DNA of 64,000 nucleotides from Zygnema cylindricum. Taxonomy: Eukaryota; Streptophyta; Zygnematophyceae; Zygnematales; Zygnemataceae. The first letter of the stretch is position 1; the number at the start of each line of letters is the position of its first letter. The stretch lies in NCBI GenBank assembly GCA_037447655.1, contig JBBHKE010002948.1:281681-345680 (forward strand), in the 5' to 3' direction. The translations under genes were made by a program, and so were the position numbers. Shown one piece after another: positions 8,453 to 64,000 of the stretch. The notes beneath the pieces were generated by a model. It saw nothing but the letters and a program-made list of their open reading frames with translations, did no database searches and was not told the origin of the DNA.

Positions 8453-8996
8453 TACACCGCGAATCGTTATTAGTGTCAAATTTTAAATAGTGTTGAAGAA
8501 AATGTGCCGTACTTGATGCTAATTAAGAATTTGAATTTTTTCAAAAAAAAGGTGTATTCTAATTTCGGAGTTAATGCTAATTTGGGAACAGCAAAAATGG
8601 AATAGTTGCCGTACGATTATATACATTAATATATGTATTCGTACATTATGTAATAAATCATACGCCGTCGCGAATTTAAAATATCCGTACATGCCATGCT
8701 AGTTTACGTGTCGGACTAATCCCGTGTTTTGAGCGCACGTTCTTATGCGTGCTCGTCTGATTTAAATCATTTTTTTGTAAAATTTCACTTAAAAAGGTAC
8801 ATTTATGTACGGTCTGACATCGACCGTACACCACACTATCTAGATTTTATTGTACTTTTGGGCTTTACGCTATTTTGTATGGTACCTTAATTAACGTCAA
8901 GGAAAAATTTAAATCATGTATCCTATTTGAAAAAAAAAATCAAAATTTCAAGAACCCAAATTATAGTTATTGACACTAATAACGATTCGCGGTATA
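8453..8996. mobile_element. TIR element, 544 bp, near-perfect 27-bp ends
   Basis: The left end is TACACCGCGAATCGTTATTA, then GTGTCAA. The right end is its reverse complement with one change (TATACC for TACACC). The termini are TA dinucleotides, consistent with Tc1/mariner-type TA target duplication, though family assignment is inference. The interior is AT-rich without an open frame. Confidence 0.8.
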
Positions 8997-9733
8997 GTAA
9001 ATCAACGCTCGTTACACGGGCATGGACTGTGTCCTGTTTTATCATGCCAGTCAGTAGAGAGCGCGCAGGTTCATAATTGTCTTTCGTTAGCTGCAATAAG
9101 TTGCGCCCTCAGTCGATTTATTGTCATCTGTCGAAATCGATTTGCCATTGTAACGGAGGTTAACCGTCTTTACAATATTTCGCCAGTCAAAGTTGTTCGA
9201 CGGATTGACCGTCAAATCTTAACTCAAAGGTATGTAGCTTGTACGAAACTGTACTTGAAACGTACAATTTTTTACAACAACCTGCGCGCAGCAAAAATCG
9301 TCTCTGCGATTAGCAATTCCCTTTATCAATTATCATGTTCGTTACACGCGCATGGACCGTTTACTGTTTATCAAATGGTGTTAGTACAATAACGCCAATC
9401 ACATAGGCTTTTTTTAGCGTATAGAATAATTACCGTGGTTTCATAATTAAGAATTTGAAAATTATGAAAACAATATTATTCTCAATTGGTTTAATAATTT
9501 AATTTAAAGTAAATGTCGGTCGCAAACATGCTTAATTATATAGGTATTTTACAAAATCTACAAACATAGAATCATATACGTTCACAGTCAAAACGTGGTT
9601 GTGGAACTAATATGTGCGAACGCGATATTTGAGAACCCGATTTGATCCTCTTTAGAACCATACCGCGCCCCGGCTACAAACATAACAATGACTTTTTTTC
9701 ACTTTGGGTAACGCATTTTGTAAAGACTAACCA
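8997..9733. other. Intergenic with a dispersed motif; no credible gene
   Basis: Contains two copies (near 9009 and 9338) of a motif close to TTACACGCGCATGGACCG, which also occurs near 10240 and 10384. The 140-codon plus frame at 8970-9392 starts inside the transposon end and looks accidental. Confidence 0.5.
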
Positions 9734-26400: not shown

Positions 26401-29400
26401 GAGGGAGGGAGNNNNNNNNNNNNNNNNNNNNNNNNNNNNNNNNNNNNNNNNNNNNNNNNNNNNNNNNNNNNNNNNNNNNNNNNNNNNNNNNNNNNNNNNN
26501 NNNNNNNNNNNNNNNNNNNNNNNNNNNNNNNNNNNNNNNNNNNNNNNNNNNNNNNNNNNNNNNNNNNNNNNNNNNNNNNNNNNNNNNNNNNNNNNNNNNN
26601 NNNNNNNNNNNNNNNNNNNNNNNNNNNNNNNNNNNNNNNNNNNNNNNNNNNNNNNNNNNNNNNNNNNNNNNNNNNNNNNNNNNNNNNNNNNNNNNNNNNN
26701 NNNNNNNNNNNNNNNNNNNNNNNNNNNNNNNNNNNNNNNNNNNNNNNNNNNNNNNNNNNNNNNNNNNNNNNNNNNNNNNNNNNNNNNNNNNNNNNNNNNN
26801 NNNNNNNNNNNNNNNNNNNNNNNNNNNNNNNNNNNNNNNNNNNNNNNNNNNNNNNNNNNNNNNNNNNNNNNNNNNNNNNNNNNNNNNNNNNNNNNNNNNN
26901 NNNNNNNNNNNNNNNNNNNNNNNNNNNNNNNNNNNNNNNNNNNNNNNNNNNNNNNNNNNNNNNNNNNNNNNNNNNNNNNNNNNNNNNNNNNNNNNNNNNN
27001 NNNNNNNNNNNNNNNNNNNNNNNNNNNNNNNNNNNNNNNNNNNNNNNNNNNNNNNNNNNNNNNNNNNNNNNNNNNNNNNNNNNNNNNNNNNNNNNNNNNN
27101 NNNNNNNNNNNNNNNNNNNNNNNNNNNNNNNNNNNNNNNNNNNNNNNNNNNNNNNNNNNNNNNNNNNNNNNNNNNNNNNNNNNNNNNNNNNNNNNNNNNN
27201 NNNNNNNNNNNNNNNNNNNNNNNNNNNNNNNNNNNNNNNNNNNNNNNNNNNNNNNNNNNNNNNNNNNNNNNNNNNNNNNNNNNNNNNNNNNNNNNNNNNN
27301 NNNNNNNNNNNNNNNNNNNNNNNNNNNNNNNNNNNNNNNNNNNNNNNNNNNNNNNNNNNNNNNNNNNNNNNNNNNNNNNNNNTCTTTTGTCATTTTACCT
27401 GATCAAGTCGTATCTAGTTGTCGAACTCCCTCTCCCTTTCCCTATCCCCTCTCCCTCTCCTTCTCCTTCTTGTTCTCCCTATCCCTTTCCCTCTCCCTCA
27501 AGCTGTTGATCTATGCTGAACTAGTCCATTTTACTGTTTTCTGTTTTGCATTTTTTTGAATTTTCTGCCCAATTTTTCCTCATTTTCCATTTTTCTAAAT
27601 TAATTAGCGGGGGAACAGTTTAACGGAATCCGTTTAATTATTCCGTTAAGTTGTTCTCCGGTTTTTCTTTGTGGGCTGTTCTCGTTACGGATTGCGGTGA
27701 ACTATTTCGTTAGACTGAACTGAATTCATGTACTCTTCAGTTTTCCGTTTATTCCATTTTTTTTTCGTATATTGAGCTTAGTTCGTGTATTTTTATAGTT
27801 TTCCGTTTAATTATATTTTCAGGAGCTGAAAAATTGAAATCATGTATATTTTCAATTTTTTTTCTTTTTCTTTTTCTCCTCCGTTTAATTGAACGGAATT
27901 TTCTGTTGTTTCCGTTCTATTGCGTTAAACTGAAGTGAATTTATGATTTTTGTCTGTTTTTCCGTTTATCCGTTTTCAGCAGCCGGTAACTGAAGTCATG
28001 TGTTTCCAGTTTTACGTTTTATTTCTTTTCTATTCTATTGAACGGAACGGAACTCGTGTATTAATTCAGTTTTCTGTTTTGTTCTTTTCCAGGAGTTAAT
28101 AGATGTGGAGGGAGGAGGCATCGCTGACCTCATCTTCGGCTCTATTCAGGAAATGGATATTGACAACAGGATGGTGGTGAGCGAGAGGGAGCGGGAGGGA
28201 GGGGAGAGGGAGGGAGGGGAGGGAAGAGAAGCGGAAGGCAGAAGGAAGGCGATCTAAAATAAAAATCAGATAGGATCTTTTCCATTCGAATGATCGGGCC
28301 AGATCGTCAGATCAAAATCGAAAAGATCAGGGATAAATCACGACATAAGAGGGCGCTATAGAGAAGAGAGGGAAAAGGATTGGTCCTTTATGGAGACAAC
28401 AGATCTTTGCGCTGCGACGTTCAAAGAGATCGAGAGATCGGAGAGTGGTAGGACGAGAGAGTGAGAAACATAAGACTGACGGATGAGGTAAACAACGATG
28501 GTCAATAGATAATGTTAAAATAAGATGTAAAAAAAAAACAATCAAAGATGATGATAAAAATATGGAGATAATGTTAAATAGTTAATTTTTGCAAGATAAC
28601 GTTTGAAAGATAATGTTTAAAAGTTAATGTTTAAAAGGTGATGGTTAGAGATAATGTTTAAAAGATGATGTTGAAATGTTGATGTTTTCTTTCTTATATT
28701 TGTTTGAGGATTTTTTTTCTTTCCTTTTTTTTTGGATGCAGTTGTACCAACATATAGTGTTGAGTGGAGGGTCCACAATGTACCCAGGACTACCTAGTAG
28801 GTGAGATCCTTTTCTATTTCTATTTTCATTCATCGACAATATTATTTACTTACTTTGTAATCGTATCTTTTATGACTTTTATTTTGCATTTCGGTTTGTA
28901 GCATCATTCTTTTTTCTTATAAACTTGTTTTGTTTTTCCCGATTATTTCTTCTTTGGGCTAATATTTATTTTTATTTTTTTATTTCTTTTTTTTCTATAG
29001 ACATGACACCCATCAACATATGGGGCATAAACAGACATCTTATTTGTTATGTAATTCTTTTTTCTCATAAACATATATTTTTTTTGTAAATTTCCTTAAC
29101 CTAAAGATATATGATTGTACTTTCATTTTTCCGATATATTTCATTTTCTTTTTTGTCCTCAAACTCAAATTACAGGATCCAAAGGTTTTGTCTTTTTTCC
29201 ATATTCTTGCCCAACATTCTCCAAAAATATATTCAAAAAATATTTTAGAAATATATTTTCTAACAAATTCGGCGATAAAAAGGGATATTGTTTTTTTTGC
29301 CAAAAAAATGGTTGATAAAAGTTGATAAATTTTGAAATGTTTTGTCGGTTTCTGTTGTAAAACCGTATTTAGTCCTACAAAGCTTTGAAAAGTTAATATT

Positions 29401-36921: not shown

Positions 36922-38379
36922 GAATCTTGTGGAAACAGGCCTTCACAAGGTATATCCGTCAATGAAATATTTTGTTTTTACCATAGCGAGTCAAAAATAT
37001 GACGAGTTTGGTACCTAAGCAACTTGCTTTTTTTAAAGGGATAAACCTATGCAACTGATCCACATTATCATTATGTCTTTTTTTCTCCTTGCCTAATGCC
37101 GTTCTCCCATGCTCAACCTGTCTCTCTCTCACTCCCACTTTTGCCCTTTCCTTTCCCTCTCGCCCTCTTTTGTCCCTCTCTCCCCTTTTTGTCCCTCTCT
37201 CATTTTTTTGCAAACATTACGTGGCAGTGATGGACGCCTAAATTGATAGCATCAATTTTCAAGGATTCAAGTGTAGCAGGGCATTCGGAAATTTTTGAAG
37301 TTGTAAAAAGGTGAAACCTTTTTTCTTGAACTATTGCCTAAACTTCAGTTTTGGTTTATACTCTACTATACTTGGATATGCGGGAGGTGTTTGCTAACAT
37401 GTATGACTGAATGTGATCACTTTCAAACGGAAGTGGAGTATATATTCACTACAAGGATTGATAGAGATGTAGTATTTAGGATTTCTTTGGCAAGCTTGCA
37501 TTGGAAACATAAACCATTCTTCAAGGTTAGTAGATGACACAATTAAGAGTCGATAAGCTTGAGCGAAAAATATAATTTTATTATTGCATGTATTATTACT
37601 AGTATTGCATGATTATTATTATAATCACTTTCAACGAGAATCGACATTTGTTATAGATAGACCGGGGGGTTTTTTATATATTTTCGTCACCCGCTTTTCT
37701 ATTTAGCGAGAAAAAGATTGAAAAAAAACGGAAATGGTTTTTCACCTAAAATCCTTAAAATCTACAATCCACAATTTTTTTCTTGTCAAAGTTCAATTAC
37801 TTTCGCTTTTGGTTGAAATAAGTACCGCCTCGTTCAGTTTATGACAATGTGTCTTGGTGAATGAAATGATCAGTAGTGTTGATCATCTTTATCCGAGGGT
37901 TTATTCCTCAAGTTTATGATTATGCGGACAAAGATACACTGTTAATTGCTATAACAATCAAGAAACCTTCAATATTTGACCAGAACTTGATGCTAGCCAC
38001 TCTAATTTCGATATAGGTGATAGGGATAATTCTGGTTCCATGGTGACAAAAATGATACGAGAAGTCGAATTACTATTGTTTACGCTAATAGTATTTATTG
38101 TAATATTTTAGGGTTTTTTTGCTTAACTCAAGTATTTAGCTATACAACTCCATATTTTAGAAGCCCCAATAAATAACTTTGTTCATAAATGATCGCATTA
38201 ATTTCTATATCATACTGATAAAATTATTGGGAAATTTTTGAAAAATGTGCACAGGGTAGCATGTCTTAATAAGAGCTCCAAAACTCCTCAATTTAGGGGA
38301 GGTACCCAAGATATCGAGCAGTTACAACCTCGCGGAAATAAAACTGCTTGTTTTGTGTGCATGAAAAGTGTGTGTGTGT
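36922..38379. other. Intergenic, no gene seen
   Basis: CT-rich at 37110-37205, otherwise AT-rich unique-looking DNA with short frames only. Confidence 0.55.
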
Positions 38380-40085
<1,706 letters not shown>

Positions 40086-45784: not shown

Positions 45785-46298
45785 GTAGGTGGTCTGAAAA
45801 AAAACCATCGGAGAACAAAGGTGTAATTCAAAACACATCTTTATTGCCAAAAAACAAATTTTTGCAATCGGTAGCCAAAAAATGAGGAAAATAGGCAAAA
45901 AAAAATGTGCGCCAATTAAAGGTAACGAACAAAAAAAAAAGGAAAGCTTCGGTAATATTAGTGCAAACCCTCCATCTAATAATAATGGATAGAGGGAGAG
46001 CGAGGCGTTAAAGTTGATTTCCATTAAAGTCGAAGAAATACAATATAAGAAAAAAAAACCTACAGGCCACGCATCGATTTGTAAGGGAAAAGTGGAGACT
46101 CATCAACCTTTAATTGGAACAACAAGGTGTGTTCAAATCCTATTTTCGGCGCTGCCAAAAATAAAAAAAAATCTCATTAAAGATTATTCAAAAATTAAAG
46201 ACCGGCAATCAAAAGTTCATAGTGGAAATAAAGATTATTCGACAATGTCTTTGTCCGAGAGAACCCAGAAAAAAAACCGAGAGATAATTGCCAAGTAG
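45785..46298 (+). pseudogene. Lysine-rich coding-like remnant, unidentified
   Basis: Frames read SEKKPSENKGVIQNTSLLPK, later KKESFGNISANPPSNNNG, ISIKVEEIQYKKKKPTGHAS and LIKDYSKIKDRQSKVHSGNK before a stop at 46298. Several in-frame stops separate them. The end segment recurs at 46880-47020 (see there). No domain is recognised. Confidence 0.3.
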
Positions 46299-46879
46299 TT
46301 TTGGTAAGCGATTTTATTCATCGGGATGATTCTATGATTTTCATTACCGAGGGCAATTTTGCCATTGGCTCCATTACCGAGGCTGGTAACGTGTAGACAC
46401 AAGCTGTGTTATCTTTACGTAACAATCCCTCAACAGCTTTGGCTATCACGAAAAGTTGGTCTATAAAAACGAAGAGTTTAACTTGCCCTAGCATGCACTT
46501 TTTATTGAGGATTGCCTAAATGGTTTATGTTATACCAAAGTGGTTATTGTTATCGACGTTAATATAAACGGTATGCACATTCGCCTATTGTTTTTGACAA
46601 TTTTTCTGTATTTTTTCCTTGATCTATTCTGGATTGGGAACATATACTTGTTGGATACACCGCTCTTTCGAGTGCGTAACAAAATAAAAAATGTTTACTG
46701 CTGTAGCTAGTCAAAAAAGTAATGGCCCAAATAAGCTCACAAGCCGAATTTACGGCATTCAAGGGTTTGGGAGAAATTCCTCTTAATATGTTTTATCATT
46801 TTATTGGCGAAAAAATCCGCCTCGAACTTATAGCTTTGCAAAAAGACGCCCACATTCAACTCGTGGCTTTTGACATGGG
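46299..46879. other. AT-rich spacer with coding-like pieces
   Basis: A plus frame reads FITEGNFAIGSITEAGN and TQAVLSLRNNPSTALAITKS near 46335-46460, separated by a stop. It is not identified. Confidence 0.35.
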
Positions 46880-47022
46880 AGTCTCATTAAGGATTGTGAA
46901 AAATTTAAAGATTGGCAATCAAAAATTCTTAGTAAGAACAAAGATTACTAGGCAATGCCAATGTCTAAGCGGACTTAGAAAAAGATCGGGAAGAATTGCC
47001 TAGCAGTTTCAATGAGCTATCT
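46880..47022. repeat. Second copy of the 46160-46310 segment (direct repeat)
   Basis: CTCATTAAGGATTGTGAAAA, TTTAAAGATTGGCAATCAAA and AAGATTACTAGGCAATG align with CTCATTAAAGATTATTCAAA, ATTAAAGACCGGCAATCAAA and AAGATTATTCGACAATG at 46174-46250. Same orientation, about 700 bp apart. The second copy directly abuts the archaeal-like block. Confidence 0.7.
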
Positions 47023-47024
47023 GT

Positions 47025-47195
47025 TTAAAACTAGGTCAAAAACCTATTAGATCCAGATTAGAAAATAGGGTAATAGACTTAATACTTAATAAGTTAGATA
47101 TAGATTGTAGAGACTATGTTAATAAACTTAATAAACTAGCTAAACATACAGGTAGACTAACTAATAAAGATAAAAGACTTAGAATTATTAAATAA
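47025..47195 (+). pseudogene. Unidentified short frame at the left edge of the archaeal-like block
   Basis: 57 codons: LKLGQKPIRSRLENRVIDLI, LNKLDIDCRDYVNKLNKLAK and HTGRLTNKDKRLRIIK. Very AT-rich codons (AAT, AAA, TTA), like the genes that follow. It looks like the C-terminus of a helical, lysine-rich protein. Family unknown. Confidence 0.4.
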
Positions 47196-47204
47196 ATTAT
47201 CTTT

Positions 47205-47351
47205 GTGAAAATAAATCTTACATTTAGCTTAAGTGTTTTAATAATAAGCTTTACAGTATTTAGTGTTATTACATTTTCATTAAACTTAATACAATTCCAA
47301 GAATTGGAAAATAAAGTCCAATACATACTAGAGATATTAAATCTAAGTTAG
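47205..47351 (+). pseudogene. Small one-helix membrane protein, archaeal-like block
   Basis: From a GTG, 48 codons: VKINLTFSLSVLIISFTVFS, then VITFSLNLIQFQELENKVQY. One clear membrane helix near the N-terminus. No family is assigned. It may be genuine, given the prokaryotic character of the next genes, or simply AT-rich chance. Confidence 0.3.
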
Positions 47352-47531
47352 ATCTTAATAATATTGAAATAAAACTAAAATCTTAAATTTCCTAAACAAA
47401 TCAAAATAACCTAATTACTTAGACTCTAAAAAACAATTAACTATTAAAAACATTTTTTTTATGTATTTCATAAAATATAAAATAAACTAAATCTTAAATA
47501 AACCTAAATATAAAACTTTAAAATATAGATA

Positions 47532-48161
47532 ATGAATTTAGTAAAAGCATGAATTACTATTTTTGCATTTAAACTTGACAAAGGTATTTTTTAAACATGT
47601 GATACACAAGCTCGTCAATTATCTAGTGAAAGATAGGATATAGAAACCAAAATCACGAAAATCAATGAAACTATGGCAATAGCATTTGCTGGGAATGCAA
47701 CCCGTGCTAAAGTTTTATCAAATGCAACCCAAGCTAAAGTTTTATCAAATTTAATACAGTACTATGCTAATCAGTTTAGTTATAATTGTCACACTAAACC
47801 TAACTGTACTTTGATAGCAATATTTTATCTAATATTTTATTTAATTGGGGAAATCACGCTTTCTAAATAGGAGTATTATGTGGTTTTGATAATCATATAC
47901 CTAGAATATATAGATTTGATGATGTAGGATTTTATTGTGAACATGAGATCGCAAGATATGGTTATGGTAGCAGATATGCAAAAGGTTATACAATACAAAC
48001 CTAATTTAACAGAAACTCAAGCTATAGACTTAGCAACTAAAAGTATGCAAGCTTCTAAAAACTTAGATTTGTATTCAGGATTTCATACATAATTGCAATT
48101 AAAAAACCTAATGGCGTTACACATTTAGATTCAATTACATAGGCCAATAAATTTATGTTAA
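47532..48161 (+). pseudogene. psmB: Archaeal-type 20S proteasome beta subunit, copy 1 (decayed)
   Basis: The proteasome beta subunit carries the N-terminal-threonine peptidase of the 20S particle. Colinear beta-subunit segments are visible across stops and frame changes: ITIFAFKLDKGIF, then TCDTQA (family T-T-V-G-I-x-x-K-D-G-V-V-L-A-x-D-x-R-A), NETMAIAFAGNATRAKVLSN, GFDNHIPRIYRFDDVG (G-x-D-x-x-P-x-[IVL]-[YF]-x-x-D-x-x-G), RYGYGSRYAKG (GSGS-type loop), YKPNLTETQAIDLATKS, then AIKKPNGVTHLDSI. In-frame stops fall where Leu or another residue is expected (for example GIF-TAA-TCD). The active-site Thr region is replaced (KA-TGA-ITIF). A 27-bp direct duplication (GCAACC..GCTAAAGTTTTATCAAAT) is present here but not in copy 2. 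The end overlaps the aCPSF1 start. Confidence 0.8.
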
Positions 48162-49927
48162 GTTTTAAACAAGAAAATATATTAAAAGATTTTTTTTCAG
48201 ATTTTGTAAACGCTTATAACGAATATTATAGACTTGTAGTACAGATAAAGGATTTAAAAAAAACAATAAATAAAACAGTTATAGACTTAGTAAAGCAGCT
48301 TGGTAATTACATAGATTTAAGACCTGATTTAAATTGTTTAAAACCCCCATATCAGAAGTAAAAACTTATTTTCAAAATTTAAATTTGGAAAACAATATTA
48401 ATCAGTATACGGGTGTGATTTCGGTTTACCAAAATATGGATGATGTGTTGAAATTTTGTAATTTTTAAAAACTTAGGTTATATTGTTAAAATTAAGCTTG
48501 GGCTTTTATCAAAGACTTGTAAACAATTAGAAAACATATTTTAAAAATTTAGACCAAATTTTTAAATTTAGAAAACTATTAGTAAAAAATATTAATACTC
48601 ATAGAAATTATAATCCCCATATTTTTACATTCACAAGTTTTTATTCTGCATCTGAGATTGGAACATCTTGTTATATTGTAAAAAGTTATCATTCTACAAT
48701 TATGTTACAGTCTGAGATTTTTCCAAAAGATGAAGGTTATCAATGCCTTTTATTAATTTTTTCACAATTAGATTTAACTAAATTAGATGCTTTAGTTATT
48801 ATATATGCACATGTAGATCATCGTGGATTTTTACCGACAGTTTATAAAGCTGGTTATAAATGGCCTTTGTAAATGACTAAACCTACTCAAGCTTTGTTGT
48901 TAGCACAATATTTGGATATTTTTAAATTGAATACTGGGTATGTTAAAATTTATGATTTCAAAGATATGCAATCTTGGATATAAAAAACAATAGTTTTGCC
49001 TTGCAAAAGATGTGTGAAACTAACATGGATATAAATATAATTTTACAGCTTTCAATCTATTTATTTGGGTCTAGTATGGTTTATCTAAGATGCTCTAAAA
49101 AACAAATTTTATTTACCGGGGATTATAAATACCAAAATTATGGGCTTTTACCTAAGACTTATCCTAGAAAAATAAAAATACATAGTTTAATTTTAGAAGC
49201 TACATATGCAAATACAGAAAGAAGAAATTTAACATACTTAGTAAAAGACAAATTTCAGAATTTAGCATATGAAACTTATAAAAATCAAAGTCATTTACTG
49301 ATACCTTGCTTTGCAATAGGTAGAAGTCGAGAATTATTAATTTTTCTAAAAAAACTTTATTTAGAAAAAAAATTACCTGACTTAAATGTATATATGGATG
49401 ATAATATAACGGAAACCACATTCAAAGCGCATGATTTCTGACAATACTTTGAAAATTAAAAATTATATTTTATAGATTTGCCAAGTAATTTTAAATTTAT
49501 AAAAAACAATGATCAGCCTTATAAACATACTAATATTAGTTTAACAACTTCTGGTGTGTTTAAAGGTGGGCCTACACTTAATTATTTAGCAAATTTAGCA
49601 AACAAATCCAGTGCTACAATTTTAATAAATAATTCCTTACAAACCAAACTAGGTAAAAAGATTTTACAAAAACAAAGCCCAATTAGTTTTAGAGTAAATA
49701 ATGTAGAATTAAATATAGCCTTAAATGCAAAAAATGATTTTATTAGTCATTTCTCTGGACATTCAGATCAAAAATCATAGTATACTTTTATAAAACGAAT
49801 AAAACCAGATAATTTAATTATAGTACACACGATTAATAATAATGCTAAGGTTTTTTCTAGGCTTTTAAATTTTTTACCAGAAGTTTATATTCAAAAAAAC
49901 TTAGAAACTATTAGACTAAATATATGA
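48155..49927 (+). pseudogene. aCPSF1: Archaeal KH-MBL-beta-CASP ribonuclease aCPSF1 (decayed)
   Basis: aCPSF1 is the archaeal transcription-termination/mRNA 3'-end ribonuclease. Order of recognisable segments: an N-terminal KH-type region ending LRPDLNCLKPP (family VRPDPSVLLPP), 48155-48360; SASEIGTSCYIVKSYHSTIM near 48640; LDALVIIYAHVDHRGFLPTV (metallo-beta-lactamase motif HxHxDH with the first His replaced by Tyr) near 48787; FGSSMVYL and ILFTGDYKYQN (TGD motif), EATYANTERR, and IPCFAIGRSRELL (family PVFAxGRxQE), all within 48974-49441; TTSGVFKGGPTLNYLANLA, HFSGHSDQ and NLIIVH within 49478-49830. Five or more stops/frameshifts interrupt it. Stops replace different residues (for example WPL-TAA-MTKP where Tyr is expected), so this is decay rather than a variant code. 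It is colinear with the whole family, about 590 codons. Confidence 0.85.
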
Positions 49928-50013
49928 ATTTTATAGTCGGTTTATTAGGTAATGTAGACCAAAGTAAAACTAGTTTTATACAGTCTTTATATAAAGTAAT
50001 TCATAAAATATAA
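49924..50013 (+). pseudogene. Start of a translation-factor-type GTPase, truncated
   Basis: The ATG overlaps the aCPSF1 stop as ATGA. It reads MNFIVGLLGNVDQSKTSFIQ and SLYKVIHKI before a stop at the duplication junction. GNVDQSKTS corresponds to the P-loop GHVDxGKTS of IF2/EF-Tu/aIF2-gamma-class GTPases, with the P-loop Gly changed to Ser. Only the first 29 codons are present. The tandem-copy boundary follows at once. Confidence 0.6.
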
Positions 50014-50065
50014 AAATAAACCAAATTATAAATAAACCTAAATGTAAAACCTTAAAATATCGATA

Positions 50066-50675
50066 ATGAATTTAGTAAAAACTTGAACTAGTATTTTTGC
50101 ATTTAAATTTGACAAAAGTAATTTTTTAACATGATACACAATCTAGTCAATTATATAGTGAAAGATAAGATATAAAAACCAAAATCACGACAATCAACGA
50201 AACTATAACAATAGCATTTGCTAGGACAACAACCCATGCTAAAGTTTTATCAAATTTAATATAGTACTATGCTAATCAGTTTAGTTATAATAGTCACACT
50301 AAACCTAACTGTACTTTGATAACAATATTTTATCTAATATTTTATTTAATTTGGAAAATCACTTTTTTGAAATTGCTAGAGTTATATATGGTTTTGATAA
50401 TCATATACTTAGAATAAATGGATTTGATGCTGTAAGATTTTATTATAAATATGAGATTATATGATAGCAGATATGCAAAAAGTTTAAAAAGTTCATTAGA
50501 TATACAGTATAAACCAAATTTAACAAAAACTCACGGTGTACACTTAGCATCTAAAAGTATGCAAGCTTCTAAAAACTTAGATTTGTATTTAAAATTTAAT
50601 ACAATAATTGCAATTATAAAACCTAATGGCGTTAGACATTTAGATTCAATTATAAAAGCTATAAATTTATGTTAA
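50066..50675 (+). pseudogene. psmB: Archaeal-type proteasome beta subunit, copy 2 (decayed)
   Basis: Aligns base for base with 47532-48161 (by eye more than 80% identical), and upstream similarity begins near 49999. Segments include SRYAKSLKSS, YKPNLTKTHGVHLASKSMQA and NTIIAIIKPNGVRHLDSIIK. It ends TGT TAA, with the next ATG (50669) overlapping by 7 nt. It differs in stops and indels from copy 1, so the two copies decayed independently. Confidence 0.8.
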
Positions 50676-50865
50676 ATTTTAAACAAAAAAATGTATTAAA
50701 AGAAAAATTTCTTGATTTTGTAAAAGCTTATTACGAAGATTATAGACTTGTACTACATGTAAAAGATCGTAATAAAAAAAAAAAAAAAACTCAGTAAAGA
50801 AATTTGGTAATTACCTAAAATTAAAATTTGATTTAAATTGTTTACAAACACACCCAAAAGTAATA
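50669..50865 (+). pseudogene. aCPSF1: N-terminus of aCPSF1, copy 2 (truncated)
   Basis: MLNFKQKNVLKEKFLDFVKA parallels MLSFKQENILKDFFSDFVNA of copy 1. After a poly-A expansion (50770-50785) the frame is lost, though KFGNYLKLKFDLNCLQT still mirrors QLGNYIDLRPDLNCLKP. Similarity stops near 50865, the right edge of the insertion. Confidence 0.7.
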
Positions 50866-51021
50866 TTTTAAATGATACACCTACTAACTCATCAACATCG
50901 GAAAACATTTACAACAATAGTAAAGGGAAACGTAAGAAAAATAGAAATGACGCAAACAGAGTACAATCATTGGTTCATACTGGGTTTCTAACAATAGCAC
51001 TATCATGTCGCATCGTGTCGG
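50866..51021. other. Junction region right of the archaeal-like block
   Basis: AT composition falls here. A short frame, LNDTPTNSSTSENIYNNSKG then KRKKNRNDANRV, is hydrophilic and unidentified. Confidence 0.4.
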
Positions 51022-56482: not shown

Positions 56483-57845
56483 AAGGTTGTTAAGCTCGTG
56501 TGCATTGTCGGCACATTTGCACTCCCAGGAGTTCCTGGGCCTATTCCACTTTGTACGGACTGTAGCGCACGGAGAAGGAAGAGGACAACTAGCCGGATCA
56601 AATCTTTATATTTTCACTCTGGAGCCCTATGCAATTTTGTTTACCTGAAACGGAGGCCGAACGTCGGAGTTAGTCCGGTGCAAAGATTCTGCTCCATTAT
56701 ATTGTGTGTTCTATGTAGCTCTAGTAGAGGGATACATTACAGAACGACACGTAACCTTTGTGATTATCCCGTAGATCCTACTGTTAGCTGTCAGTAAGAT
56801 GTTAATTTAGGCCCAACAGCCGGGCCAAGCATTAATGACTTTGGGTCAAAGTTAGGCGGTTTCACGTCGAGTCAGAACTTTGTTTCAATTTTGTGTATTA
56901 TAGGAGGACCCTCGGCCGCTAATCCAGCCGGGACCAGTTGTCTAACTTTTAGCCGTGAGTGTAGTATAGTCTGGTTGGTCTTATGTCCGTACGATAACAA
57001 TGGTTGGCTGCTGATTGGCTTGTCACATTGCTTTGACTTTGGAACTTGCACTAGGACAAACTCTGGTTGTATAAGACACTTGGGGCCGAAGGAGACAGGT
57101 TGTTTTTTCAGTATTGTCTCCTGAGAAAATCCTCAGAGAATTAAATCAATCTTTTTGTTGGAGAACGGTTCCATTATGTCGTTGACTCTATTGCCATCTT
57201 TGTTTTGGATTGTCTTTTGTGGAGACCGTAGCACGGGTGGGTAGTTGGCACTATCTCCTCTTTGGGCGGTTTGGACTTTTGATGTTTGAAACTAAGAAGA
57301 GTCTTGTCGGATCCTTGCGGTGGAACCGGGAAGGTTGAGGGAGACTCATACCTGACTTCGGGGCCATTGGGAGAGGTTTTCTTCTGTTGAGTTTGGTCAT
57401 CGTTGCACTCCGGGGTATGTGAATTCGCTTCACCATTATCATTCATTTCTATCTTTAATTCCATTCTCTAGGGCAAAGTGATATTGTTTAATCTGAAAAG
57501 CCGATATTTGTTATTTCTATATTTGTGCGTGGGAGTTATTTGCACACTCTTGTGGTCATCTTTGGGTTTGTCCGGAGTTTTGCGGAAAGGATCGGACGAC
57601 TCTCATTTCCTTCCTATCCTTTGGAGAGTAGGTGGGAGTGTGGCATTTGGTGGGCTTCCAGCGGAGTAGCACAGTACTGAAAAAGCAACTTGTCTCTTAA
57701 GGTTAAAGAGGATAGGTGCTCAGATCGGAGTACTTTTATATAAAGGGATTTAGATCTTCTTCTCCAGTCAGCTATAGGGGGAGGAGAAGTTCAGGATAAC
57801 GATCTTCCGGGTGTCAGATCGGAAGAGCAAGAGAGGCAGAAAGCG
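56483..57845. other. Junction between two retroelement remnants
   Basis: Short frames only (for example PGVPGPIPLCTDCSARRRKR at about 56520). It may contain the LTR/leader of the following Gag, but no duplicated LTR lies within the window and I could not place a primer-binding site. A hydrophilic minus frame (57464-57174) is not identified. Confidence 0.4.
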
Positions 57846-60431
57846 ATGGCCCAAGAGGAAGAGTCTCAGATGCTTGAGGAAACACCCCTCTTTGGCTCCC
57901 CTTTACACGTAGAGCGGTTTCTTGGGGGAGAGATGCCTCCGGAGGTTGCAGTCGAAACTCCTCTAACGCAGCCAGAGAGGCGACCCTCTCCTCCACCTCC
58001 ACCTGTCTTTTCCCCCGAAATCTTTCCAACTCTGTCCGAGTCAGCCCGAGCTTGGGCACTGGAGAGGGCGGAGAGGCCACCCCTTTCTCCTAAAAGCCGT
58101 AGAAAAGGGTTGGCACACAAGGAAGCGATCCCTGGTCCGCTTCCCGAAATCGGTCGCTTTACCAAGTCCAAGGCACCGATAACAGAGATATATATAGATC
58201 TAGAGATTCTGTCTGACCCTAACCGGCCAGGTCGCAAGGAAATCTTAGCCCTTCATAATCTCCATGAATTGAAGGTTAAGAAGGAGTTGGTGCAGCGAGT
58301 GGCCAGGTCAGACCGAGCCAAGGTGGTACACCCAGTGGGAGGTGTAGTAGAGTTACTGAGTAGTTCGTCGGAGAGCGGCTCCCCAACCTCAGCACCGGAT
58401 CAACAGGGAGGACCATCAACTTACTACCCGCAGCCCACCATATCTCAGGAAACTGCTACCAGTAGACCTTCTAGGGGCAGAGCAACTTCTCGGGGCCGAA
58501 CCAGGGAAGGGAGTAGCAAGCGGAAGTTACCTGAGCCCAAGAGAGATTTCCGGTTCAACCATCGGGACAGCAAAGGTCGATTTGCTCCCCTAGTCAAAGA
58601 AGAGCCGTTCTTTCCTTCTGCCTCAATTTCCCTAAGTTCTATGTCTCCTTCCGCACCAGTTGTCCGACCATCCGAAGGACTATGGCGTTTGAGGCCTACG
58701 GATCTCGAGGTACCGGGTTTGGGGATTGCGGATCTCTCAGGGGTGGTGAGCAGTACACAAAAACTGGTTGACATCTTGCTATCCCAGAGTCAGGCGACGG
58801 AGGGGGCTGGACCCGTCACCATTGATTGGGAAGCTCTTGAAGAAGAGAGGAAGAGGGCCCTCGAACACGAACTGCTCCTCATAAGGGAGGCTAGACGAAT
58901 ATCAGGAGGGATCCTTAGGGGACAGGTAGCTCATCCCAAAGAGACAGGTCCCTCTGCTGAGAGACAACCTACCGAGCAGATTGCCCCTACTTGGACTCCA
59001 TCTCCCAAGACTTCTTCGGAACATAGACCAGAGTCCCCTCTTCAGCGGGAAGGGGGGGAAACAATAGAATCTAACAAAAAGGGGTTGGGTGCAGATTTGT
59101 TGAGTAATCCGATAGCCGCGGCTACAGATCTCCCTACCATTGTCTTGGTCAAGGGATCTTCTACCGTGGAGGCCGTGGTGCTGCTACAACCAGACCGAAG
59201 ACTACACATTTCCCTTGGACTTACTCCTCCTCTATCGCCACCTCAGGCATCCTCTCCATCGCCTTCTGTTTCTCCGGCCGGTGCAGTCCGTGGGTCACCG
59301 GGACCACCCGTCTTACCCTACAAGTACGACGTTCCTGCCTACTCTCCTCCTCACGGACGTTCTCCCGATTCCAGCGAAGGAACTCCTCCACCAGAAACCT
59401 CAAAAAGGCGTACACGGAGACAGTCACCTTTCCCTCGTAGTCCTCAGTCATCTCCATCCCCTTCCCCACCAATCCCTCAAGTACCACCGATGACTAAACC
59501 TATTCTCCACATTCCCTCAGTGGAAACCCTTCACGGGGAGGAACGGGCCTCTCCTGGGTATAGAGGAGCAGGACTTCGGGCAGCTTTTCTCAAGGTGATA
59601 AGCTCCTCGTTTCCCAAGGGCCAACTCTAGGAAGATACTGGTCATCTCACTATCCCACCAGTAACCGGAACTTCCTCAGTGGGGGGGAGTGCCATCTCTC
59701 GTTAGACCGCTCCCTCTACCGGAGAAGGAGGCGAGCCCGAGCCAGATGACGCAGATCCAAAGGTAATTTCACTGGTGCAGTTTGTTAGCCCAACCGGACC
59801 ATCCTCTTCACAGTTCACCAACCTTGGAAAAGAGGGAAAAGAAATGGGGGACGTAAGGATCTTTACAAGAGATAGCTCGAGAATCGCTTTCTCTGATTTC
59901 GAACTGCTGTGGAAGTCGTTCACCCAATCTGAAATCAACAAATACAGGGGAGGGGCCATTCCAGCAGATTTTGAAACAACCCTGTTTGCGATGATGGTAA
60001 ATTATCTAGCCGGAGGAGCTTTGGCCGATTACAAAGAGCGTCAACCTTTGTTGATGGCCCCCAGTATCAAAATATCGGACCCGGCTCTGGACGTCGAGGC
60101 TCTTCAGGCAGCAGCCGACCTGGCTGCCGCAGCCGCAGCTCCTCTCACCCCCACTTTCACCATGGATATGAAACATCATGCCCAAGGCAGGGCCTATGTC
60201 AACCACCTTCAGGCTGTACAGGTAGCCGAAGCGACCACCAGGATGGTTGCCAATCCTAATCCCTGTACCACCTTTGTGGACGCTTGGAGACTCTTTTACA
60301 CAGAAAGGAACGAAACTGCCATCAAGGAGTTCACAGACTTCCGCTGTTTGAAGAATGAAACTCCCCAGACGCTGTGGAACTCTGAGACCTCCATAAGTCC
60401 TCAGAGTAGACAGCTTCTAAGAAGCCTCTAG
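57846..60431 (+). CDS. LTR-retrotransposon Gag polyprotein with two in-frame TAG codons
   Basis: The frame from 57846 (MAQEEESQMLEETPLFGSPL) runs 594 codons to TAG at 59628-59630. It continues in the same frame through a second TAG (59703-59705) to 60431, 862 codons in all. The first part is proline/serine-rich and basic (GRATSRGRTREGSSKRKLPE; SPSPSPPIPQVPP), suggesting a disordered RNA-binding/matrix region. The last part (FSDFELLWKSFTQSEINKYR; WRLFYTERNETAIKEFTDFR) is helical and resembles the capsid domain of the neighbouring Gag (EEYWMQNIDQVKEFMNFKRR). No CCHC knuckle or protease follows in frame, so the element is truncated at about 60.43 kb. The TAGs may be decay or readthrough sites. 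The GC-richer codon use contrasts with the AT-rich surroundings, suggesting a young insertion. Confidence 0.65.
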
Positions 60432-61435: not shown

Positions 61436-64000
61436 CTAGTCAATCTTTAATTTCAGACCACAATTCTCCCTGCAAAAAAATAGCTTAGGGGAAGGCACAG
61501 GTTTGGTCATCATATCTGCTACCATCTCACTATCTGGTCTGTACTCTAAACTGATTATTTTGTTTTCTACTTTCTCTCTAACAAAGCTGAGTCTGATGTC
61601 CATGTGTTTGGCTTTAAAATGGTGTTTAGGATTGGCAGAAATAGCGATTGCTGCCTGATTATCACAAAATATTTTCTGCACACCACTCTTAAGGTGACCA
61701 AGCTCACCAAGCAAAGACTTGACCCACATCAATTCTTTTACAGCAGAGCAAGAGGCAATATACTCAGCCTCCATGGTGGACTGAGCAATAACCTTTTGCT
61801 GTTTGCTACTCCAACAGCAAGCCCCATCACACACATATAATACATATCCAGAAGTACATCTCCTCATCGGAGCATCACCATAACTGGCATCACTCCAAGT
61901 AGTGATGTCAGTATTCTCCCCACCCAAATGCAACCATAGATCTCTAGTTCCTACCAAGTATCTAAGGACTCTCTTAGCTGCCTCCAAATCCTTCTTAGTG
62001 GGAGCATTTAGACTTCTACTCAGCACTCCTACAGCTGCAGCTAAATCCGGCCGGGTACAATTCATAAAATAGATTAGACTTCCCACTACTTGCCTGTAAG
62101 GAATAGTCTGCATGAACTTCTGTTCATCAGGAGATAATTCCTCGTCTAAGACTATGACTCCTTCTTCCTCACTCCCCTCACTTCCCTTCTTCAACTCCAT
62201 TGGAGTTGTACAACTATTTGCTTTATCCATTTGAAATTTTTCAAGCATGTTACCTATTGCTTCCTTTTGAGTCAATCTTATAATTTTCCTTTTTCGGTCT
62301 CTCTCTACTTGAATTCCCAAATTATATTTTGCTTCCCCCATATCCTTCATTTCAAATCTCCCCTTAAGATCGGTTTTCAGTTTATTAATTTTTTCCATTG
62401 ATTTACTTAAAACAAGCAAATCATCAACATAAATTGCAATAAATATAAAACCTTTCTCATCTTCGAAAACATAGATTGAGTGATCTGAGCTGATCCGAAT
62501 ATATCCTAGACCGGTAAGAAACTCATCAAGCTTCTTATTCCACTGTCGAGGCGCCTGTTTCAAACCATAAAGAGATTTAATCAGCCGGCATACCTTACTC
62601 TCCTCTCCTTCTTCCACAAATCCTTCGGGTTGTCGCATGAAGATCTCCTCTTCCAATTCTCCATGCAAAAAGGCTGTTTTGATGTCCATCTGGTGCACTT
62701 CCATGTCTTCCGCCGCTGCTAAACTGAGAAGTATGCGGACGGAGGGAAATCTGACCACCGGGGCAAAGGTTTCCTCGTAGTCAATTCCTTCCTTTTGTGT
62801 AAATCCCTTTGCCACTAATCTGGCCTTGTAGCGCTCGATTGTGTTATCTGGGTTCAGTTTTAGTTTGAAAACCCACTTACAACCGATTGGTTTTCGGTTA
62901 GGTGGACAGTCCACCAGCTCCCAAGTATCGGCTGCCATGATTGAGGCCATCTCCTCATTGATGGCTGTCTTCCACCGGTTTCTTTCTGGACAAGTCATCA
63001 CCTCTCGATAAGTTTGAGGTTCATCTTGATGAGATAGTTTAGTTACCTTGTTATTAACCAATTTTTCTTGCAGTCTTTTGCTACTTCTCCTTCCCCCCTC
63101 AAAATCTGAGGCCGGAATAGATGGTTCTCGTGGATTCTTTCGAACAAACTCGGCTTCTCCCCTATCCCTTGATTCCGAATCAATTTCCACCACGTCTTTT
63201 GCTTCGAGTAGAGTTGTCACTGGAGTTTCCACAGCCGAGTCCTTTTCGGTCTGATTTGTTCCTGCAAGAATGTCATCTTCTCTAAAACCTGGATAGTTAG
63301 GAAGCTCAAAGTCATCGGAATTTTCTGACTCAAATCTGATTTTTACTGACTTCGTATATTTGAAGGGATCCACAGACTTTCCTTCATCCATAACTACTAG
63401 ATGCTTTACTAAGATTATATCTTCCCTTTTTAGATCATAAACTCTATATCCTTTAACATCTTCATCATATCCTAATAAGTATCCTGGTTTTCCTTTAGGA
63501 TCTAGCTTCCAATCGGACCGATCAGTATCTAGACTGAACACTTGACTGCCGAAAACCTTTAAGTGAGATATGTCTGGTTTCCGGCCTGTCCATCTCTCAT
63601 AAGGTGTTTGATCTCTTATAGCCGAAGTAAGAACTCTATTCTTGAGGTAATTAACATAGTTCATTGCTTCTGCCCAAAACCTTTTCCCTATCTTTTTATC
63701 TGACAACATACTTCTAGCACTATCACTTAGTGTTCTATTTAACCTTTCAGCTACCCTATTTTGTTCCGGGTTTTTTGGAACTGTCTTTTGCTGTTGGACC
63801 CCATCTTCCCTCAGAAAATCCTCAAATTGGTTAGAAGTATACTCTCCACCATTGTCACTCCTTACTCTCTTGATTGGAGTTTCATGGAGTTTTTCGCTCC
63901 ATGCTTTATATTGTCTAAAACAATCCTCACCTTCGGACTTGTTTTTCAAAAAATATACCCGGGAAGACCGAGACCAATCATCAGTTATAGTCATCATAAA
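61436..64000 (-). CDS. Ty1/copia Pol polyprotein, 3' part (integrase-RT-RNase H)
   Basis: Open to the window edge; 853 codons visible from the first Met at 63997, with TTT before it, so the frame continues outside. Domains in order: integrase core with TITDDWSR (first catalytic Asp), SDNGGEYTSNQF (second, about residue 47) and NRVAERLNRTL (Glu, about residue 81). Then a variable linker, and reverse transcriptase from about residue 357 (WELVDCPPNRKPIGCKWVFK; MDIKTAFLHGELEEEIFMRQ near 436; IAIYVDDLLVL near 522). Then RNase H near 695-830 (TTWSDASYGDAP; STMEAEYIASC; CDNQAAIAISANP; KHMDIRLSFVREKV; ADMMTKPVP). All key residues are present and no stop interrupts it, so it may be recently active. 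Orientation is opposite to the two Gag remnants at its left. Confidence 0.95.
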   Translation of the reverse strand, partial: FMMTITDDWSRSSRVYFLKNKSEGEDCFRQYKAWSEKLHETPIKRVRSDNGGEYTSNQFEDFLREDGVQQQKTVPKNPEQNRVAERLNRTLSDSARSMLSDKKIGKRFWAEAMNYVNYLKNRVLTSAIRDQTPYERWTGRKPDISHLKVFGSQVFSLDTDRSDWKLDPKGKPGYLLGYDEDVKGYRVYDLKREDIILVKHLVVMDEGKSVDPFKYTKSVKIRFESENSDDFELPNYPGFREDDILAGTNQTEKDSAVETPVTTLLEAKDVVEIDSESRDRGEAEFVRKNPREPSIPASDFEGGRRSSKRLQEKLVNNKVTKLSHQDEPQTYREVMTCPERNRWKTAINEEMASIMAADTWELVDCPPNRKPIGCKWVFKLKLNPDNTIERYKARLVAKGFTQKEGIDYEETFAPVVRFPSVRILLSLAAAEDMEVHQMDIKTAFLHGELEEEIFMRQPEGFVEEGEESKVCRLIKSLYGLKQAPRQWNKKLDEFLTGLGYIRISSDHSIYVFEDEKGFIFIAIYVDDLLVLSKSMEKINKLKTDLKGRFEMKDMGEAKYNLGIQVERDRKRKIIRLTQKEAIGNMLEKFQMDKANSCTTPMELKKGSEGSEEEGVIVLDEELSPDEQKFMQTIPYRQVVGSLIYFMNCTRPDLAAAVGVLSRSLNAPTKKDLEAAKRVLRYLVGTRDLWLHLGGENTDITTWSDASYGDAPMRRCTSGYVLYVCDGACCWSSKQQKVIAQSTMEAEYIASCSAVKELMWVKSLLGELGHLKSGVQKIFCDNQAAIAISANPKHHFKAKHMDIRLSFVREKVENKIISLEYRPDSEMVADMMTKPVPSPKLFFCRENCGLKLKID

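Follow-up and report, generated by a model that had tools for sequence, protein, structure and literature searches.

A probable archaeal-type gene fossil, psmB and an aCPSF1-type nuclease, in a genomic contig of Zygnema cylindricum

Introduction

Organelles and bacterial endosymbionts such as Wolbachia leave DNA in the nuclei of their hosts. These nuclear copies of mitochondrial and plastid DNA (NUMTs and NUPTs) and Wolbachia integrants are non-functional, partial and decaying fragments of a cell-associated genome, lying in a nuclear chromosome and secondarily rearranged there. A similar fragment, differing from these in that its donor is archaeal-type, appears to lie in a stretch of 64,000 nucleotides of the streptophyte Zygnema cylindricum (assembly GCA_037447655.1, contig JBBHKE010002948.1, here C2216:281681-345680; this whole stretch is called the window). 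The fragment is a block of about 3.9 kb that holds the remains of psmB, the gene for the beta subunit of the 20S proteasome, followed by those of a gene for an aCPSF1-type KH/MBL/beta-CASP ribonuclease. The reading preferred here, to which a probability of roughly 0.83 is given, is that the nucleus took up a piece of archaeal DNA, probably by end joining, and that this piece was duplicated in tandem and decayed under no selection.

The closest described protein is aCPSF1, or FttA (TIGR03675, arCOG00543), the archaeal transcription-termination nuclease. It has in common with the window's nuclease and its nearest relatives a KH-containing N-terminus, an MBL and a beta-CASP domain, and a psmB neighbor as in one Pacearchaeota locus. 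The window copy, however, is dead, and the two intact metagenome proteins nearest to it (585 and 587 amino acids) are strongly diverged and score below the curated family cut-off. As a type of donor, one could consider Candidatus Sukunaarchaeum, reported as a 238-kb archaeon found with a dinoflagellate, that is, a tiny-genome archaeon tied to a eukaryotic cell (PMC12736012). Kinship between it and the donor would be a guess, as no sequences were compared. According to the summary text of another report, methanogenic endosymbionts are the only known intracellular archaea (PMC12662959), and among the open-licence papers listed by literature searches on archaeal DNA in eukaryotes, no title or abstract opening reports an archaeal insertion of this kind. 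If the preferred reading is true, the block is physical evidence of lasting contact between an archaeon and a eukaryote outside the methanogens.

Remains of an archaeal-type gene pair

The block runs from window position 47024 to about 50900 and stands out by its guanine-plus-cytosine (GC) content of 0.238, compared with 0.378 elsewhere in the window, and by a CpG observed/expected ratio of 0.48 compared with 0.87. Its edges, from GC in 100-base steps, are at about 47.0 kb and 50.9–51.0 kb. The only run of Ns in the window is at 26412–27382, and the original prediction, made from the sequence alone, was right in calling the block AT-rich and gap-free.

The nuclease fossil is nearly full length (48155–49927, forward strand). 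For two pieces of it, the best family is the NCBIfam model of aCPSF1, TIGR03675, with E-values of 1.4e-42 (145.8 bits) and 2.2e-21 (75.8 bits). Against the PDB, the C-terminal piece finds archaeal CPSF on top (2ycb, 2.3e-23; 2xr1, 1.4e-22), followed lower down by Integrator 11 (3.1e-18), FttA (3.9e-17) and CPSF73 (3.2e-15). Read through its stops and frame breaks, the fossil matches P0001, a JGI metagenome protein of 587 amino acids whose longest contig has 143,196 bases. This match has an identity of 42% and covers 97% of the query (E 2.4e-133), and the runners-up among the 120 listed of 278 matches reach about 27%. In the reverse direction, tblastn of P0001 against the block gives 6e-80 and 3e-51. 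A two-sequence profile adds a second relative, P0121 (585 amino acids, JGI, 16,334-base contig), which is 63% identical to P0001; for none of the remaining 118 of the 120 listed matches (of 1047 at E<=1e-20) does identity with P0001 rise above 34%. The fossil itself is 42–45% identical to its two relatives.

Both relatives match TIGR03675, P0001 with 374.8 bits (E 6.7e-112) and P0121 with 370.7 bits (1.2e-110). In P0001, the Pfam models PF00753, PF10996 and PF07521 match, and the Pfam KH models do not. Its predicted structure (pLDDT 86, from a 20-row alignment) matches archaeal KH-CPSF/FttA over the whole length in the top eight hits (TMq 0.84–0.89) and aligns to 2ycb over 631 columns that take in the N-terminal KH region, the MBL domain and the beta-CASP domain. 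Eukaryotic structures first appear at a TMq of 0.63 and reach at most 0.67 in the 50 matches listed. Judged by this predicted fold, the nuclease of the clade is of the archaeal KH, MBL and beta-CASP architecture, although the Pfam KH models miss its KH region.

The first psmB copy (47532–48161, forward strand) is hard to recognize piece by piece: against PF00227, two of three pieces are weak (E 7.8e-4 and 0.017, both under the cut-off) and the third gives nothing. A read stitched from both copies of the gene matches PF00227 at 1.9e-23, over the cut-off, and its best NCBIfam model is that of the archaeal beta subunit, TIGR03634 (2.6e-17, compared with 8.2e-10 for archaeal alpha). A PF00227 search of the whole host genome also recovers the gene at window 47556–48083 (3.8e-5, over the cut-off).

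In the window, the start of the aCPSF1-type gene overlaps the end of psmB. The same order is found intact in a locus of a Pacearchaeota metagenome-assembled genome, in which psmB (8895–9566) stands just before aCPSF1 (9605 onward), so the claim of colinear psmB and aCPSF1 remains is borne out by family matches for both and by their order. A search for psmB homologues at E<=1e-3 found none in 122 candidates. At its other end, the stop of the nuclease overlaps, as ATGA (49924–49927), the ATG of a P-loop-like stretch of 29 codons (49924–50013, forward strand) that ends at the second psmB copy. Overlaps at both ends of the nuclease gene amount to prokaryote-like packing. The stretch contains a GxVDxxKT motif, which we take to resemble translation GTPases and which the searches did not confirm; the stretch has no match over the cut-off in Pfam, NCBIfam or PDB, and the GTPase gene of the original prediction shrinks to this piece. 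Upstream of psmB, the start of the block (47024–47460, forward strand) has two coding-like stretches with no significant match in Pfam or NCBIfam.

Relatives and the possible donor

A first tree was built from 43 rows, the window sequence and 42 others chosen from 239 proteins; outside the clade described here, these rows comprised 4 eukaryotic, 4 bacterial and 32 archaeal or unnamed sequences. The window sequence, P0001 and P0121 grouped together at 100/100, apart from all other rows. They did so again at 100/100 in a second tree, built from 18 C-terminal rows, in which the host's own CPSF73 (on contig C1414) fell among the eukaryotes, also at 100/100. For the nuclease, the relatives are two metagenome proteins of aCPSF1 type and not eukaryotic CPSF73. 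The link to methanogens that had been drawn from their gene order is not supported: the closest kin form a clade that is AT-rich and has long branches.

The proteins of this clade are rich in the residues F, Y, M, I, N and K, whose share is 0.403–0.419 in the three members, compared with a maximum of 0.378 and a median of about 29.4% in the 118 other homologues listed. Together with the long branches, this share suggests that the donor was an AT-rich, fast-evolving archaeon with a strongly reduced, symbiont-like genome, which would have lived in or on the host. Among GTDB contigs, a search for relatives of P0001 yielded two proteins, an aCPSF1 of Pacearchaeota and one from a bacterium.

A further step can be proposed tentatively, with the odds somewhat against it: the block may be a fossil of undescribed, deeply diverged and strongly reduced archaea, not methanogens, that lived inside the cells of a photosynthetic eukaryote, near enough to the nucleus for their DNA to enter it, and P0001 and P0121 may come from their living kin. 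In these searches, the rest of the clade consisted of two metagenome protein clusters, and the two proteins are the handles for finding a living partner.

Decay and duplication

Five internal stops were counted in the 583 codons of the nuclease fossil, leaving out two further stops directly beside frame breaks, of which there are four. The metal site HxHxDH, intact in P0001 and P0121, reads YAHVDH in the window (H216Y), and H300 is changed to Y as well. These two are among 16 changed positions in the 47 columns that are invariant in 20 aCPSF1-type proteins; one of the 16 is changed to a stop and a few are changed conservatively. Reassignment of the genetic code was considered as an explanation for the stops and was ruled out because the in-frame stops sit where P0001 has different residues. 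The block had been called riddled with stops, which is apt for psmB and too strong for the nuclease.

The amount of decay can be gauged in several ways. Neutral decay was simulated at two depths: 0.065 substitutions per site gives a mean of 5.5 stops (range 2–11), and 0.13 gives 10.4 (5–17). Half of the divergence between the two tandem copies described next is 0.073, and the 16 changed invariant columns would need about 0.18 by a rough count of our own. These estimates put the total at some 0.07 to 0.18 substitutions per site.

A feature absent from the original prediction is a tandem duplication, in which 47463–48343 was the source of a second copy at 49996–50847 (psmB and the start of the aCPSF1-type gene, forward strand). 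The two are 80.5% identical over 903 gapped columns; in the ungapped columns, 110 of 834 sites differ (13%, Kimura two-parameter (K2P) distance 0.146), and nine indel events separate them. The second copy begins in the last codons of the 29-codon stretch and ends near the right edge of the block.

The first psmB copy has in-frame stops at 47550–47552 and 47634–47636, among others, and both of these have a counterpart in the second copy: a TGA at 47550 and 50084, and a TAG at 47634 that is a TAA at 50166. In a register read by eye, the TGA lies at or beside the codon for the N-terminal catalytic threonine in both copies. Other defects are private, such as indels of 27, 17 and 11 bases; the first psmB copy has a 27-nucleotide internal repeat absent from the second and lacks 17 nucleotides relative to it. 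The two shared stops suggest that decay had probably set in by the time of the duplication, and the private defects that it continued afterwards. The same pattern could also arise by parallel mutation or gene conversion. From copy 1 to copy 2, changes of G to A outnumber those of A to G by 28 to 6, and changes of C to T outnumber those of T to C by 16 to 7. This bias towards A and T in the second copy, with the low CpG of the block, is perhaps the mark of cytosine deamination in the nucleus.

A course of events can be proposed along these lines. The fragment would have been captured at a broken chromosome, probably through end joining, the way organelle and bacterial-symbiont DNA is taken up, and selection would have acted on it in the host never or not for long. 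The first mutations, including the stops now found in both psmB copies, would then have been followed by the tandem duplication, and that by the further indels and stops private to each copy.

Host setting and alternative explanations

The contig that carries the block is 669 kb long, and the genome comprises 353 Mb in 2689 contigs. A DNA search with 47020–50900 against this genome, skipping simple repeats and very common words, returned one match, the block itself. Its left flank (46100–47009, no strand assigned) carries a host dispersed repeat. With 46100–47024 as the query, 18 matches besides the flank itself were found on 17 other contigs at 66–75% identity, 16 of them within 46100–46329 and 2 within 46870–46983. 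The repeat occurs twice in the flank, at 46172–46301 and 46882–47009 (74.6% alike), and the second occurrence ends about 15 bases before the block. On the right is an edge zone without assigned strand (50848–50990), in which a weak likeness to the start of aCPSF1 may reach about 50925; GC then climbs from 0.33 to 0.58 at 51001. In the 274 kb of contig searched, there is no further copy of either flank beyond the repeats inside them.

Several points weigh against the preferred reading. The joins of the block to its flanks are known from the assembly sequence alone, and a misjoin is possible. The stem of the clade is long (2.12) and is not nested within the named archaea sampled, and the tree program warns of dissimilar composition as well as of long branches; the word archaeal is therefore used because of the aCPSF1 architecture with its KH region, the match to NCBIfam and the neighboring psmB, and not because of nesting. 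P0001, P0121 and the fossil pieces all stay under the curated TIGR03675 cut-off of 580.2 bits, which is why the fossil is called aCPSF1-type and not a curated member. The stitched psmB read likewise scores 63 bits against a TIGR03634 cut-off of 224, and in the PDB its best matches are eukaryotic beta5 chains (5.4e-10), ahead of 1j2q (4.9e-6), which we take to be an archaeal-type proteasome beta subunit. With this ranking, psmB alone leaves the domain of life unsettled, though its best NCBIfam model is the archaeal one. Lastly, the measures of decay disagree on a single value, though all of them fit an old, dead sequence. Transfer from an AT-rich archaeon into the nucleus followed by decay, as first proposed, is still supported by the 100/100 clade, the stops, the frame breaks and the host repeat in the flank.

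The main rival is an assembly chimera, in which DNA from the genome of an archaeal symbiont or a contaminant, its genes already decayed in the symbiont itself, was misjoined into a host contig. Reduced symbionts commonly carry decaying genes, and the join is seen only in assembly sequence. A chimera would nevertheless have to place a gap-free insert of just 3.9 kb in a 669-kb contig with host repeats at its left, and to account for a 13% diverged tandem copy inside the insert and for stops and changed catalytic residues in two housekeeping-type genes. Nor is there any sign of a live archaeal genome in the assembly, on two queries only. P0121 has six matches in the host genome, three in the block, one in the host CPSF73 and two weak ones on other contigs. 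With this single query, no further archaeal-type aCPSF1 turned up in the 353 Mb. The PolD DP2 family has no match in the host genome; it was found in 3 of 14 control genomes, and the clade may lack it. Overall, the chimera is unlikely.

It is more improbable still that the host once used the archaeal proteasome and nuclease pair and later lost it. Long frames do persist, such as one of 161 codons (48956–49438). The genes, however, retain the packing of a prokaryote with overlapping starts and stops; none of the 120 matches listed in each of the two homologue searches is a eukaryotic member of the clade; the host possesses a CPSF73 and proteasome frames of its own; and the density of stops agrees with decay that was not preceded by a long period of protection. 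Least probable of all is delivery by a virus, plasmid or other mobile element instead of directly from an archaeal cell, for although the tandem copy could derive from a concatemer and 47024–47460 has no family assignment, the pieces searched against Pfam and NCBIfam gave no mobile-element family and scans of IMG/VR found no relative of P0001.

Host genes and neighboring features

The host genome has 17 matches to PF00227, the block being one; the other 16 were not classed individually. The host alpha1 proteasome gene is a single open frame of 303 codons, and its best PDB match is 7qve, from spinach. Taken by itself, this gene would hint, with low confidence, at an intron-poor archaeplastid, perhaps a red alga, though CPSF73 and the other proteasome genes look split into exons. 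Three proteasome-family matches contain internal stops (C771:143481-143819, C406:401623-401799 and C133:152837-152980) and may be host pseudogenes or exon read-through.

Of the low-GC stretches in 274 kb of the contig, none is longer than the block, and no other was found to hold genes. Another, at 251.9–254.2 kb of the contig, is an AT-rich, satellite-like tandem array of TAATTATACA/ACTAATAACTG-like motifs and not genes, and one near 256.4–258 kb was seen as a GC value only. Within the window, long GA/A-rich microsatellite arrays at 38325–39900 give an extreme skew. A Ty1/copia-type retroelement polymerase lies at 61439–64000 on the reverse strand, with an 854-codon open frame containing integrase core, SH3-like and RVT_2 domains. 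Near it, at 57744–59627 on the forward strand, is an open frame of 628 codons without a Pfam match.

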